Shown: positions 25,239 through 30,272 of the stretch, piece after piece
Position numbering within the stretch: the first letter of the stretch is position 1
How the letters are laid out: each line of letters begins with the position of its first letter
DNA from: a virus
Direction: 5' to 3' (one strand)
Virus record (IMG/VR): IMGVR_UViG_3300043446_001432
Coordinates: 1-31,113 of that record
Length of the DNA stretch: 31,113 nt
The notes under the pieces: model-generated
Seen by the model: the letters and a program-made list of their open reading frames with translations, nothing else
The model's database searches: none
Told to the model about the DNA's origin: nothing
Made by a program: the position numbers and the translations under genes

Positions 25239-26483
25239 TTAGTGCCTGCGCGTATTGTCGCCCCAGCGGTTGATTGTTGGCAATGGCACAAAGTTTTCAA
25301 CCTTTTTGGGCTGGGCGCGCCTTGCGCTTTCACAGGCATATCTTAGCGCATCAATAACGTGATTGCTCTTATCTTCCAATATAGGCAAAACTTTACCAGT
25401 CAAAGGGTCTGTTTTATAACTATATAACGTCAATTCGTCGATTGTATGCTTACACCGAGGATGCACAACAATATCAAAGCTTTTTAGCCATTCTATACCC
25501 TCTTCTACCGACTTCGCCCCTTTTACTGCTGGCATGATCTTTTGGAAGCCATGCGAGCGCATGTGGGATATGGTTTCAGGGCGTGAGCTATCCGCCACCA
25601 TCGGCCACTTTTCAGATTCTGGCACCGTCATAAACAAATCGGGTGTATTCACGATCTCACAACCGACCATGTAAGCCTCGTGGTCGATGTAAAGCGTGCG
25701 CCCAACGATGTGGCAGCGCACCAGTACTGTCGGATCGCTGGCAAACCCCCAGTCAGCGCCGAGCCTATGCACCGCATCTTTCGGTGCGTCAAACTCTTCG
25801 ATTCGCCAGTTGCTAAACACCCTGCTTGTGCTGTTTTGCAGGTAGCCACCAAGCCAGACATGCGCGTACTTGTCCGGGTCGCGCCGCCTGTCGTATTCCA
25901 TCTCAGCGCGCAACACTTCAGGAAACCACGGATTGTCATCGTAATTTACAGGCAGAATTACCGAGCCAGGCGGCGGCGTTGGGCCACGCAACAGATGATC
26001 GACCGGGTCGCTGGCCTGACTTGGATTCCATGTGAACCAAAGCTCTGAGTTAGGCTTACGGATGGTCGGGCGCAGCAGATCAAGGCTGCGCTGTGACAAG
26101 CTCTGCGCCTCTTCAACCCACGCCCGGTCGTATCCTTCCAGAGACTTAATCGAATCCGCCGTGTGATTCTGCATCCCCTGGAAGATAATCAAGCCATCAC
26201 CCTTGCGTGACTTAATCACCGCCTCTTGCACCTCAAAGTAAGCGCCTGCCCCCATCTGCTCGATCTTCATTTCGAGCAACCGCTTGACCGACTGCGCCAA
26301 AGACTTCTGCACCTCACGAACACACACCGACCGGCTGGACGGGTTGATTATGTGTTCCTCAATGAGCATTTCAGCGAAGCAATGCGACTTACCAGAGCCA
26401 CGCCCACCGTATGCGCCCTTGTATCGAGCAGGCTTAAGCAACGGCAAAGCCCAGCGCGGGGTCTGTATCTTGAGTGTGGTCAC
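25239..26483 (-). CDS. Terminase large subunit
   Basis: 414 residues of the PBSX/Terminase_3 type. Walker A GGRGSGKS at 26-33, Walker B YDRAWVEEA at 118-126, and the RNase H-like nuclease with ADWGFASDPT (Asp244), MVADSSRPE and DKSNHVIDALRYA. It pumps DNA into the procapsid and cuts concatemers, probably by headful packaging with the small subunit. The start is GTG at 26483, overlapping the upstream TGA. The final 25 residues are basic and aromatic (NFVPLPTINRWGDNTRRH) and may touch the portal. Confidence 0.95.
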   Translation of the reverse strand: MTTLKIQTPRWALPLLKPARYKGAYGGRGSGKSHCFAEMLIEEHIINPSSRSVCVREVQKSLAQSVKRLLEMKIEQMGAGAYFEVQEAVIKSRKGDGLIIFQGMQNHTADSIKSLEGYDRAWVEEAQSLSQRSLDLLRPTIRKPNSELWFTWNPSQASDPVDHLLRGPTPPPGSVILPVNYDDNPWFPEVLRAEMEYDRRRDPDKYAHVWLGGYLQNSTSRVFSNWRIEEFDAPKDAVHRLGADWGFASDPTVLVRCHIVGRTLYIDHEAYMVGCEIVNTPDLFMTVPESEKWPMVADSSRPETISHMRSHGFQKIMPAVKGAKSVEEGIEWLKSFDIVVHPRCKHTIDELTLYSYKTDPLTGKVLPILEDKSNHVIDALRYACESARRAQPKKVENFVPLPTINRWGDNTRRH

Positions 26484-26816: not shown

Positions 26817-27021
26817 CTTGAAAGCCTCTTAGGTTAAGCCTGCCGGGGATTTTGAATCCCGGCAATAGCTCTACGCCATACAACGTGAGATCACGCCCAT
26901 CATCAAACGTGCGGGCGTGTTCGTAGGCATTGGCAATGTCATTCCAAGCCTGAGACTCGCTTTTGTATGGACCTGACAAAATAAGGTGCCGTTTGCCTTG
27001 TTGTGCGGTTATGTAGTGCAT
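26809..27021 (-). CDS. Hypothetical 70-residue protein
   Basis: A small alpha/beta protein: MHYITAQQGKRHLILSGPYK, then helix SESQAWNDIANAYEHARTF, a GRDLTLYGVELLP strand and NLRGFQVA end. It overlaps terminase small by one base (TAATG) and the HTH gene by 8. The helix-strand layout is seen in small phage proteins of unknown role; I do not recognise a family. Confidence 0.6.
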   Translation of the reverse strand: MHYITAQQGKRHLILSGPYKSESQAWNDIANAYEHARTFDDGRDLTLYGVELLPGFKIPGRLNLRGFQVA

Positions 27022-27476
27022 TACTCATCTTCCTTGTTTGTAAAAGCCCGCTGCTCGATCACCTCACCAACGACCACGCGTTCTATGCGCTCAATCTTAA
27101 GCGGGTTATCAGAATCGCCAGACACTTCGATCTTGTCGCCGTACTTCTTAGGCGCGAGCTTGCTTAGAAGCCATTTGCGCGTGTCAATCTTTAAACGCTG
27201 ATTACTAACCCAACCACTATCTACTTTTCCATCAGGCCCGCGCTCAGGATCAGCATCGGCAAGTGCGACAGTATCATCAGCAATCTTGTCGATCATTGTT
27301 TCACGAGCGGCTTTGTATTGTTCAGCTAAGTTGCGATCCTCGCTAACCCAAAGCATAAATGCCGATGAAGATACATTGTGAGCGTCACAAGCATTACGCA
27401 AGCTTTTACCTGATTGCATCATTTCAAGGATGCTATTTATTGTTTCAGGGTATCGCTTGGTAATAATTCGACCCAT
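27021..27476 (-). CDS. Terminase small subunit
   Basis: 151 residues from ATG 27476 (an in-frame TTG lies at 27482). An N-terminal helix-turn-helix (GKSLRNACDAHNVSSSAFMLWV) is followed by an oligomerisation part (EQYKAARETMIDKIADDTVALADADPERG) and RLKIDTRKWLLSKLAPKKYGDKIEVSG, the signature of the small terminase family that recognises the packaging start site. A flexible acidic tail ends the protein. Such proteins usually have a pac sequence inside or near their own gene; none can be pointed out by eye. Confidence 0.85.
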   Translation of the reverse strand: MGRIITKRYPETINSILEMMQSGKSLRNACDAHNVSSSAFMLWVSEDRNLAEQYKAARETMIDKIADDTVALADADPERGPDGKVDSGWVSNQRLKIDTRKWLLSKLAPKKYGDKIEVSGDSDNPLKIERIERVVVGEVIEQRAFTNKEDE

Positions 27477-27478
27477 AA

Positions 27479-27607
27479 TCAAAACCCACGAGGTTTAGGA
27501 TAACAAACCATAATGCCACGCTTATCAACGGTGCATTCATATGTGTTGGCATTTGCACTATTAGCCATACCAACAAACAACAAAACAGTAACAATATATT
27601 TGTTCAT
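27479..27607 (-). CDS. Small exported protein with a signal peptide
   Basis: 42 residues. MNKYIVTVLLFVGMANSANA is a classical Sec signal peptide with a likely cleavage after ANA at residue 20, leaving NTYECTVDKRGIMVCYPKPRGF with two cysteines that could form a disulphide. GGA lies about 7 bases before the ATG. A 22-residue mature periplasmic peptide next to packaging genes might act in superinfection exclusion or modify the envelope; this is inference. Not found by 60-residue cut-off gene finding. Confidence 0.6.
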   Translation of the reverse strand: MNKYIVTVLLFVGMANSANANTYECTVDKRGIMVCYPKPRGF

Positions 27608-27887: not shown

Positions 27888-27922
27888 ATCATAGCACATT
27901 GTTCGTCATTGTACATTGTTCG
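27888..27922 (-). promoter_or_regulatory. Putative promoter with a duplicated ACATTGTTCG element
   Basis: On the minus strand TATGAT (complement of 27888-27893) is a good -10; a -35 TGTACA lies 16 bases away (complement of 27910-27915). The exact 10-mer ACATTGTTCG occurs at 27896-27905 and 27913-27922 on the plus strand, one copy in the spacer and one over the -35, as for an operator. The resulting leader would be only about 6 bases, which weakens the promoter call. Confidence 0.35.
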
Positions 27923-27925
27923 CAA

Positions 27926-28080
27926 CCCCTACCCCTGCCCCTGACGAATTAACAATGCCCCTACCGCCCCTGACGTATACGTGTCAGGGGCAGGGGCGGG
28001 GCGTTTTTTGTTAATTTTTCCACAATCGCCCCTAAACGCCCCTGAAGCCCCTAGGGGCAGTTAGGGGCACTTAGGGGCAC
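27926..28080. repeat. GCCCCT/AGGGGC repeat cluster, candidate replication origin
   Basis: Eleven copies of GCCCCT or its complement lie between 27937 and 28078. They form: an exact 10-bp direct repeat GCCCCTGACG at 27937 and 27966; a 14-bp inverted repeat CCCCTGCCCCTGAC (27932-27945) with 27983-27996; a 9-bp hairpin 27966-27974/27983-27991; the palindrome GCCCCTAGGGGC (28047-28058); and tandem TTAGGGGCAC at 28061 and 28071. An AT-rich stretch (28004-28020) and TTTTCCACA (28016-28024, one mismatch from the DnaA box TTATCCACA) sit in the centre. The last two repeats encode the end of the primase. Origin function is inferred. Confidence 0.5.
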
Positions 28081-30100
28081 TTTTTTTAAGCATCATTGCG
28101 CTAGCCTGAACCCCATCAACGACCACCCAACCATGCTCAAATGGCTCGATTGTTCCGGCGTTGAGCATTGGCGCGATGAGGCCATCTGACCGGCTGGCCT
28201 CGGTTTTGTTCTTGGCGGTGCGCTCTGACATGCCGTCAGATATAAGTAATTCCCTCAAAGCGGAACGGCTTATATATGGTTTATCTTCCCTTATTTCCGC
28301 TCCACTATTAAACCAAGCCCGCTCAAACGTCCTGACGTTCTCATCGTGCTTGGTGGGTCGTTTATGTGACTGCTCTGTGCTGGCGCTTTCATCTGGCACC
28401 GCCACGCAAGTGGTCGCCGGTTTTCCGAACTTGGTTATACCCATTTCCACCACTTCCAAACGGAAATATATAATCTCACCTTTACCCGGCAATTCTCTTT
28501 GCTTGGTAATAGTTGCAGACCTTATTCCGTCCTTTTCCATTACCTCAATTTCTGTATCAATATGCGCCCTAATGCCTGACCATCCGCGAGCACCTTTGGC
28601 TTGATCTTTTCCGTTATGGTGAATAATAAGTAGGGCTGAACCAGTGGCTTGTGCCACAGAATCAAACCTAGCCATAACTGGCCCCATATCCTCGCCGCTA
28701 TTCTCATTTGCCCCGGCGCTCATACGTGCCAAGGTATCGCCAATAATTAAGCGGACGGGCTGCGCTTTGATCTGCTCAATTGTTTTGACCAGCTCAATTA
28801 CGTCTCGTGCATCGCCTTCGTTGGCGTAGAAATTGAGCGGCACCGGAACCATTGCCAAGTTCTCGAGGCTGCACCCGTAATGCTTTTTGATGGCCTGCAT
28901 TCTGGATCGGATCGAGCCGGGCGCTTCGCTCGCTAGATAGACAACTAGGCCGGGGTCGATCTGGCGCTTGAAGAATGGCTGGCCGGATGCGATGTGAGCG
29001 GCAAGCGACAACGCAAAAAACGTCTTTCCGCTGTTGCTGTCGCCATACAACACCGCCATGCCGCCGATGGTCATGAAATCCTCAACCAGCTCATTCGGCG
29101 CTTCATAGTCGGTAGATAGGCCATCACCGAACACCACCTTCAGCTTGTCGAGCATGGTCTTATCGGATTGAGGATTCAAAAGCCCTGCCAGGTCATGCCC
29201 TGCCTGTGCATAGTCATTAGCATCGCCCTGAATAGACGGCATAACCATGCGCGCCCCGTACTTGGCGCAGGCTTGTTCGGCGTATTTCTGGCCTACGCCA
29301 GACGCGTCGTTATCGGCCATAATCACAATGTCTTGTGCTTGTCCGTGTATCTCACGCATGGTGCCAGTGACGGGCACCAAGTTGCTGGCGCTGTATGCCA
29401 CAATCACCGGCCTGCCGCTTACCTCGTGGATGGTGGCGGCGGTGGCAAAGCCCTCTGCAACGTACAACACACCCGGCACATCCAGCGTGCCGATGATGCA
29501 AAACTTACCGCCTACGCTGCCGCCTGGGTGATAAAGCTTCCCGCCTTCAGCATCAATGTATTGCAGGCTGGCGAGTACGCCATCCGAGTCAAAGAGCGGC
29601 ACCATTAGGCGACCGTCGCCCGTGATCTTTGCGCCGTGTGGCTGGATGCCCTTGCGCTTTAAGTACGGATGTTCAGGGCTGGCGGCGGCACCCTCTGACC
29701 ATATCTTATCTACGGTATTAGCGGCGACTTCGTTTTGCTTCTTGCGCTCCAAGTCACGGGCTGCTTTAGCTGCTGCTACGCGAGCGACATGGGCCATCTC
29801 ATCGGCTACGGTATATGGTCGATTTATGGTCGCTTTTATGGTTTGTTCTATGCCTTGCCGCCAATCGCCCCAGATCATGGTGCAGATGCCGTCAGCATGG
29901 CCCACATACCAACCAGAGCGATCGTGCTTTTTCGGGTCAGGACGAAACCGGCGCAACTGACCGTCAAGAATAATTTCGTTCGGGGGCTGAACCCCGGCGC
30001 TTAACATTGCCTCACGAAACTGATCCTCCGGGGGCGCGACTCTTTTCTCGGTCGCTGGTGGTGCCCACGGACCTCCCAAAATCTTTGTAAGGTCAGCCAT
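28061..30100 (-). CDS. TOPRIM primase - RepA-like helicase fusion
   Basis: 679 residues. A TOPRIM domain runs from about 208 to 308: VLYVAEGFATAATIHEVSG (Glu216), then IVIMADNDASG (DND at 263-265) and GDANDYAQAG. The second half is a RecA/RepA-type ATPase (AAA_25): Walker A GDSNSGKT at 353-360, Walker B LIIGDT at 451-456, then ALLIIHHNGKDQ and GWSGIRAHIDTE. A C-terminal extension follows (about 580-679). No CxxC pairs are present in the first 150 residues, so the usual zinc-binding primase part is absent. It probably unwinds DNA and primes replication. It ends in the repeat cluster. Confidence 0.9.
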   Translation of the reverse strand: MADLTKILGGPWAPPATEKRVAPPEDQFREAMLSAGVQPPNEIILDGQLRRFRPDPKKHDRSGWYVGHADGICTMIWGDWRQGIEQTIKATINRPYTVADEMAHVARVAAAKAARDLERKKQNEVAANTVDKIWSEGAAASPEHPYLKRKGIQPHGAKITGDGRLMVPLFDSDGVLASLQYIDAEGGKLYHPGGSVGGKFCIIGTLDVPGVLYVAEGFATAATIHEVSGRPVIVAYSASNLVPVTGTMREIHGQAQDIVIMADNDASGVGQKYAEQACAKYGARMVMPSIQGDANDYAQAGHDLAGLLNPQSDKTMLDKLKVVFGDGLSTDYEAPNELVEDFMTIGGMAVLYGDSNSGKTFFALSLAAHIASGQPFFKRQIDPGLVVYLASEAPGSIRSRMQAIKKHYGCSLENLAMVPVPLNFYANEGDARDVIELVKTIEQIKAQPVRLIIGDTLARMSAGANENSGEDMGPVMARFDSVAQATGSALLIIHHNGKDQAKGARGWSGIRAHIDTEIEVMEKDGIRSATITKQRELPGKGEIIYFRLEVVEMGITKFGKPATTCVAVPDESASTEQSHKRPTKHDENVRTFERAWFNSGAEIREDKPYISRSALRELLISDGMSERTAKNKTEASRSDGLIAPMLNAGTIEPFEHGWVVVDGVQASAMMLKKSAPKCP

Positions 30101-30272
30101 TCCGCACCCCGCCGCTCAGGTAATCAGCCAGGGCTTTCACTACTCGATGCGTCGGGTTTGCTTCAGGTTGCTTAATAATGCTGCGGATCGTATTCGGGTG
30201 GATAGCCGTAGCCCGCGCCACCACCGATATTTTCCTATCCCGCAGAGCTGCGCGGATATCTTCAAGTGTCAT
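30093..30272 (-). CDS. Cro-like helix-turn-helix regulator
   Basis: 59 residues: MTLEDIRAALRDRKISVVARATAIHPNTIRSIIKQPEANPTHRVVKALADYLSGG. Helix 2-turn-helix 3 is at about 16-34 (VVARATAIHPNTIRSI), typical of Cro/XRE repressors. The start at 30272 has AAGGA about 8 bases upstream; a longer reading to 30353 lies in the control region. It overlaps the primase start by 8 bases and is divergent from the Sak4-like gene, so it probably regulates both promoters in the intervening 121 bases. Confidence 0.8.
   Translation of the reverse strand: MTLEDIRAALRDRKISVVARATAIHPNTIRSIIKQPEANPTHRVVKALADYLSGGVRNG

Follow-up and report, generated by a model that had tools for sequence, protein, structure and literature searches.

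A repeat array at the 3ʹ end of a phage primase-helicase gene: a candidate iteron origin whose repeat word co-varies with the C-terminal domain of the encoded protein

The DNA analyzed here, termed the window, comprises the entire 31,113 bp of an IMG/VR virus record (IMGVR_UViG_3300043446_001432). The virus encodes portal and coat proteins of the P22 type, with terminase genes nearby. On the minus strand, at 28061–30100, lies a gene for a 679-residue protein that combines a TOPRIM primase, a RepA-type RecA-fold helicase, and a C-terminal winged-helix domain. Pfam places a Toprim_3 domain at residues 212–300 and an AAA_25 RecA-fold helicase domain at residues 322–501 (E 8e-34), and a profile search of the PDB matched the helicase to the structure of RSF1010 RepA (1g8y, E 2.8e-7). 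No D5/SF3 family was reported for the protein in the Pfam and PDB profile searches. Directly upstream of the primase is a gene for a small HTH protein (30093–30272); it overlaps the start of the primase-helicase gene, and relatives commonly have it.

The C-terminal domain of the primase-helicase (residues 575–679; 28064–28378, minus strand) has no Pfam family. It is predicted to be a winged helix, and we propose that it binds the iterons described below. Its AlphaFold2 model (pLDDT 86) has the element order H-S-H-H-S-wing-S, and a model of the full-length protein agrees with this prediction. The structural neighbors of the domain in a PDB fold search are mostly winged-helix proteins, of generic kinds (Foldseek best E 0.022; best Z only 6.7). 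The matches listed did not include P4 alpha, an absence that proves nothing, and one C-terminal domain searched against plasmids gave no match. Residues 627–637 (RTAKNKTEASR; 28190–28222, minus strand) make up the predicted recognition helix and the subsequent loop; in the model, the helix itself spans residues 626–633.

A dense block of short repeats overlaps the last codons of this gene, and its outermost repeats sit within the gene and encode the last residues of the protein. Eleven copies of the hexamer GCCCCT or its complement AGGGGC fall within 142 bp (27937–28078), against nine more in the other 31 kb of the window. By comparison, 20,000 composition-matched random 142-mers held 0.12 copies on average and three at most, and no hexamer of any kind exceeds four copies in other 142-bp stretches of the contig. 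Along the gene, the GGGGC 5-mers are ordered as three reversed and three forward, an AT-rich spacer, and again three reversed and three forward; they thus form two mirror-symmetric clusters. Block 1 (28028–28078) consists of GCCCCT three times and then AGGGGC three times, about 10 bp apart. It flanks a perfect 12-bp palindrome, GCCCCTAGGGGC (28047–28058), and contains tandem copies of TTAGGGGCAC at 28061 and 28071. Block 2 (27937–27997) contains three GCCCCT, two AGGGGC, and near-copies, and surrounds a near-palindrome (27966–27991) with the center ACGTATACGT. The spacer between both repeat sets (28003–28027) is 76% AT and is a candidate melting site. Within it, on the strand opposite to the reading of the gene, is the DnaA-like box TTTTCCACA (28016–28024). 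A larger, imperfect inverted repeat spans 27947–28016, with the arms AATTAACAA (27947–27955) and TTGTTAATT (28008–28016).

A sequence-only reading had previously taken this stretch for a candidate iteron origin. Its hexamer count and the excess over chance were confirmed, as were the 12-bp palindrome, the tandem repeat, the AT-rich core, and the position at the 3ʹ end of the primase-helicase gene. The exact 14-bp inverted repeat that it also described was not found: the best exact one is GCCCCTGAC/GTCAGGGGC (9-bp arms, 8-nt spacer, 27966–27991), and the longer inverted repeats of the block (16–26 nt) are imperfect, at 73–89%. The DnaA-like box is present but lies one base off TTATCCACA. GC skew, a proposed means of mapping the origin, tracks gene direction here and speaks neither for nor against an origin. 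A DNA-level search of known phages with the block returned only a weak match, to part of the DUF3310 gene.

Strong hairpins are predicted in the transcript that runs through the block and could belong to a structured RNA or an intrinsic terminator where the primase message ends. Yet the sole T-run that follows a hairpin (28004–28009) lies on the other strand from the genes, a terminator scan gave no site within the block, Rfam gave no match, and RNAalifold gave no net covariation support for the hairpins. Such a role is extremely improbable.

Protein searches yielded 366 loci encoding the primase-helicase or a relative, some of which are overlapping cuts of one record; the 259 with distinct flanks and usable length were the basis of comparison. 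IMG/VR contains several hundred further relatives, with candidate counts of 513 and 553. Most of the loci compared come from IMG/VR and some from isolated phages (among the relatives are Alteromonas PB15 and XX1924, Idiomarinaceae 1N2-2, and Salicola CGphi29) and bacterial genomes. Nearly all full family members carry a strongly repeated word directly 3ʹ of the primase-helicase stop codon, usually in the same two-block arrangement. The array is thus conserved with the primase-helicase in position and layout, as an origin belonging to this protein would be, while the expectation that relatives share the same hexamer did not hold, as the word itself varies. Put into a common frame, they follow a G-G-N-N-C pattern and include GGGGC, GGGTC, GGAAC, GTAAC, GGTAC, GGGAC, TGGAC, GATAC, GGTCC, GAGTC, and GGTTC, among others. 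A few loci, L065 for example, have no array directly after the gene.

Array statistics were drawn from 105 non-redundant loci to which a word had been assigned, automatically and in part mis-framed (as in L042). The median array has nine iterons; it starts at the stop codon, inside the gene in 49 of the 105 loci, and ends about 144 bp after that start. Spacing between words of the same orientation peaks at 10 bp and opposed words are often 21 bp apart, as would be the case for proteins bound along the same side of the DNA helix.

Further features of origins are enriched in the same set. An exact DnaA box TTATCCACA occurs in the 345-nt segment of 28 of 105 loci (27%), compared with 3 of 411 control coding segments, although most relatives, like the window, are without an exact box. 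The spacer averages 57% AT against 43% for coding sequence and is the richer of the two in 89 of 105 loci. The palindromes of 76 of the 105 loci exceed those of local shuffles, and the outer arms of the large inverted repeat undergo matched changes in relatives (AATCAAC/GTTGATT, AATTGAC/GTCAATT, AATCCAC/GTGGATT). Between or near the blocks there is additionally a word-independent, strand-specific element, GGGGCAAAA: 35 of 105 loci have it on one strand, a single locus on the other. It was seen, as GGGGCAAAA or GGGCAAAA, in L022, L038, L144, L152, L242, and others, the longer form being the one counted in the 35 loci; perhaps it is a priming or loading signal.

Two side observations concern arrays elsewhere. 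In L042, a second complete array with the word GGGACA lies about 180–318 nt after the primase stop, behind a GGTAAC array; the helix of the L042 protein fits GTAAC only, not GGGACA, and the second array is possibly an acquired foreign origin or a decoy. Distant helicases in bacterial genomes (L160–L170; Paraburkholderia, Ramlibacter, and Jiella, for example), matched over the helicase region only, also show strong hexamer repetition near the 3ʹ end of their genes (GGACAG ten times, GTACGG 11 times, CGGGAC 11 times), which suggests that the phenomenon may be wider.

The genes downstream of the array vary between relatives, and the array stays with the primase-helicase. This bears on two alternative functions. 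The genes for TerS (27021–27482) and TerL (25239–26483) lie about 450–2,700 bp from the repeat block in the window, and a packaging site (pac or cos) might be sought in such a place; an array that remains behind the primase-helicase when other genes follow, and whose word follows the tail of that protein, makes this hardly credible. Alternatively, the array could be an operator through which the primase-helicase tail or another regulator controls transcription of the downstream DUF3310 gene rather than the start of replication. Autoregulation by initiators is common, and in the window type the array is just upstream of the DUF3310 promoter region (27889–27922). Against this, the array keeps its place when the downstream genes differ, a two-sided array of 9–12 copies with an AT-rich spacer, DnaA boxes, and palindromes far exceeds what an operator needs, and the promoter already has a separate operator-like repeat. 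We consider an operator function unlikely. In the repeat at the promoter, GCACATTGTTCG/GTACATTGTTCG occurs twice at a distance of 17 bp and covers the DUF3310 promoter-like site; relatives of the window type conserve it as GCGAACAATGTRC...ACAATGTGCT, and it is likely a repressor operator.

Across the 259 loci, the word follows only the C-terminal ~95 residues of the primase-helicase. The partial correlation of array k-mer similarity with the C-terminal domain, given the body of the protein, is 0.230 (0 of 500 permutations as high), and the reverse value, for the body once the C-terminal domain is given, is −0.007; for residues 622–644, given the body, it rises to 0.354. Among about 660 aligned columns, the highest mutual information with the word belongs to R637, E634, P644, K632, M624, and N631, with R627 slightly lower. 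In pairs matched by the identity of their bodies, N631, R637, K632, T628, E634, and R627 rank highest among all columns of the protein; these six fall within residues 627–637, which take in the predicted helix (626–633) and the adjoining loop. In this comparison, pairs that share a word conserve N631 in 97% of cases and pairs with different words in 19%, counts that are not independent of one another because the sequences share kinship. Parsimony gives a similar picture: the word changes 25 times on a tree of residues 622–668, compared with 42 times on a whole-body tree and 43–57 times on trees of three 84-residue body segments. Neither the adjacent HTH protein, nor the primase type, nor the downstream genes track the word. 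The C-terminal domain therefore appears to read the repeat words, and in hundreds of related phages the word and the reading residues seem to have switched in concert again and again.

Natural swaps are especially informative. The proteins of the window and L017 are 95% identical over residues 20–575, and 99% over the last 84 of these, yet their C-terminal domains are 45% identical and the helix 13%; the L017 array has GTAGCG repeats instead of GCCCCT. L268 and L316 likewise have bodies that are 92% identical, C-terminal domains that are 37% identical, and different words. These pairs also bear on the possibility that the words are read by the small HTH protein (30093–30272) or by a host protein. 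The position of the HTH gene, overlapping the primase start, and its frequency in relatives would suit a reader. However, the upstream HTH is identical in L268 and L316 and near-identical in the window and L017, with different words in each case, which rules it out; a host protein, in turn, would leave the residue-level coupling to the primase-helicase tail unexplained. A reader other than the primase-helicase is thus very unlikely.

The primase can be separated from the array as well. In L371 (MW202867.1), a Prim-Pol/PriCT (AEP) primase replaces the TOPRIM domain, and the helicase, the C-terminal domain, and the array, with the word TGGGACA, are kept; the array, therefore, does not belong to the primase, and a signal for the primase only was rejected. 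The same locus weighs on the proposal that the hairpins are start signals for the primase on single-stranded DNA (ssi-like, as in RSF1010) and that the repeats arise secondarily from the pairing of stems. The excess of palindromes, the outer stem arms that change together, and the strand bias of GGGGCAAAA are all as such signals would have it. Still, every copy of the word, direct and inverted, changes together, which pairing alone does not need, the word tracks the winged helix, and an unrelated Prim-Pol was exchanged into the protein with helicase, tail, and array unchanged. This explanation is very unlikely. In a further rearrangement (L059 and L069), the array lies between the helicase and the winged helix, which are now two separate genes. 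In L059, L062, L064, and L069, where the fusion is split by the array, a further winged-helix-like paralogue is encoded downstream.

The main caution is that the word and the domain are adjacent on the DNA, so recombination could move both together. Linkage is insufficient as an explanation, since the most tightly coupled residues lie at 627–637, away from the C-terminal end, which is closest to the array, and since the near-single-step pairs L152/L242 and L144/L149 are not swaps. The L144 and L149 types have V and Q at position 631, and the L242 and L152 types S and Y at position 637. One such small step joins KKLKPGS with GGTACG and KKLKPGY with GGTCCG, in bodies that are 89% identical. A rough code can be written for positions 627/628, 631/632, 634, and 637: RT-NK-E/D-R goes with GGGGC, RT-NM-N-Y with GGGTC, S-QY-K-V/I with GTAAC, S-VY-K-A/Q with GGAAC, T-KK-K-S with GGTACG, and T-KK-K-Y with GGTCCG. 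In its strong form, a handful of residues (627, 628, 631, 632, 634, and 637) would set the GGNNC-type word, as a fast-diversifying, nearly readable code of origin identity in which word and reader switched together about 25 or more times in the sample. We advance this tentatively and give it somewhat less than an even chance.

The computed results are a conserved array beside the gene, a word coupled to the C-terminal domain and to residues 627–637, and an enrichment of AT-rich spacers, DnaA boxes, and palindromes. From these, we infer that the block is very probably the replication origin of the phage, docked via the C-terminal winged helices of the primase-helicase. Several copies of the protein would dock through these domains on the GGGGC words, which form two opposed clusters with steps of about 10 bp, one turn of the helix. 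The resulting nucleoprotein complex would open the AT-rich spacer between the clusters, perhaps together with host DnaA at the adjacent box, and rings of the RepA-type helicase would thereby be loaded onto the opened strands. The fused TOPRIM domain would then make primers, and the palindrome of block 2 may aid opening or priming. In this scheme, the steps from physical binding and opening through helicase loading and priming to the firing of the origin are deduced from sequence comparison. The candidate iteron origin of the sequence-only reading is thus supported by the conserved array and the covariation, with a presumed start of replication; its suggestion that the fusion protein binds the iterons is strengthened by the coupling of word and C-terminal domain, which points to the likely binder and its binding domain far more tightly than that reading could.

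The comparison offers a sequence-based route to locating the origin in a large environmental phage family, with binder, domain, and residues named by comparison. It places an arrangement hitherto regarded as peculiar to the origins of PICIs in phages whose helicase is unrelated, and the many natural pairs of word and helix, some of them near-single-step, make winged-helix recognition directly testable. If the code reading is true, co-resident relatives or satellites could not use, or titrate, each other's origin. The natural pairs also raise the question of what drives such frequent change of origin identity. The literature covered consisted of open papers, and an earlier description of this phage family may exist.

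The closest likeness in layout is found in the SaPI/PICI elements, in which the origin lies immediately 3ʹ of the initiator-helicase gene and comprises two short iteron sets around an AT-rich stretch (PMC6092414). Their iterons differ between elements and are recognized by the C-terminal domain of the helicase (PMC6092414; PMC7581432, in its passage citing Ubeda et al. 2007). The window shares the array 3ʹ of the initiator gene and the two iteron sets flanking an AT-rich stretch. However, its helicase is RepA-type (AAA_25) and fused to Toprim_3 rather than SF3/D5-type, and the window is a phage with P22-like portal, coat, and terminase, not a satellite relying on a helper phage.

P4 alpha unites primase, helicase, and an origin-binding winged helix in one protein that acts on repeated short words; its helicase is SF3, its primase is unrelated, and ori and crr are separate sites. 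The window resembles it in having primase, helicase, and winged helix in one chain and short repeated words, the domains being likened by description, and differs in having AAA_25 and Toprim_3 instead of an SF3 helicase with a P4-type primase. P4 alpha with ori and crr is mentioned in PMC6092414. At RSF1010 oriV, RepA, RepBʹ, and RepC are three proteins, the primase is of the AEP type, and iterons accompany hairpin elements (PMC4538821). The window has a RepA-type hexameric helicase (1g8y, as above) and iterons with hairpin elements as well. In contrast, helicase, TOPRIM primase, and putative iteron reader form one 679-residue chain with no separate RepC or RepBʹ, and the words of the window family are 5–7 bp.

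In the archaeal plasmid pRN1 (ORF904) and phage BIP-1, primase, helicase, and winged helix are fused, and a stem-loop origin situated just 3ʹ of the fusion gene is required; what has been demonstrated there is the stem-loop rather than an array of iterons (PMC4234260). The window likewise has a fusion protein with an origin-like element just 3ʹ of its own gene, although an SF3 helicase and AEP primase in ORF904 correspond to RepA-type and TOPRIM domains in the window. To our knowledge, the helicases of SaPI/PICI, P4 alpha, and pRN1 are all SF3. With its RepA-type helicase, in a tailed phage with structural genes, the window system is therefore a member of none of these three groups.

For the co-change of word and reader, a parallel exists in geminivirus Rep, where comparison indicates that iterons differ between close relatives with matching initiator residues (PMC12548392, in its passage citing Arguello-Astorga and Ruiz-Medrano 2001). 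Iteron word and initiator residues co-change there as in the window family, although the initiator is an unrelated rolling-circle Rep and the viruses are eukaryotic ssDNA viruses. The O proteins of lambdoid phages are a further case in which iterons and initiator residues have changed together.
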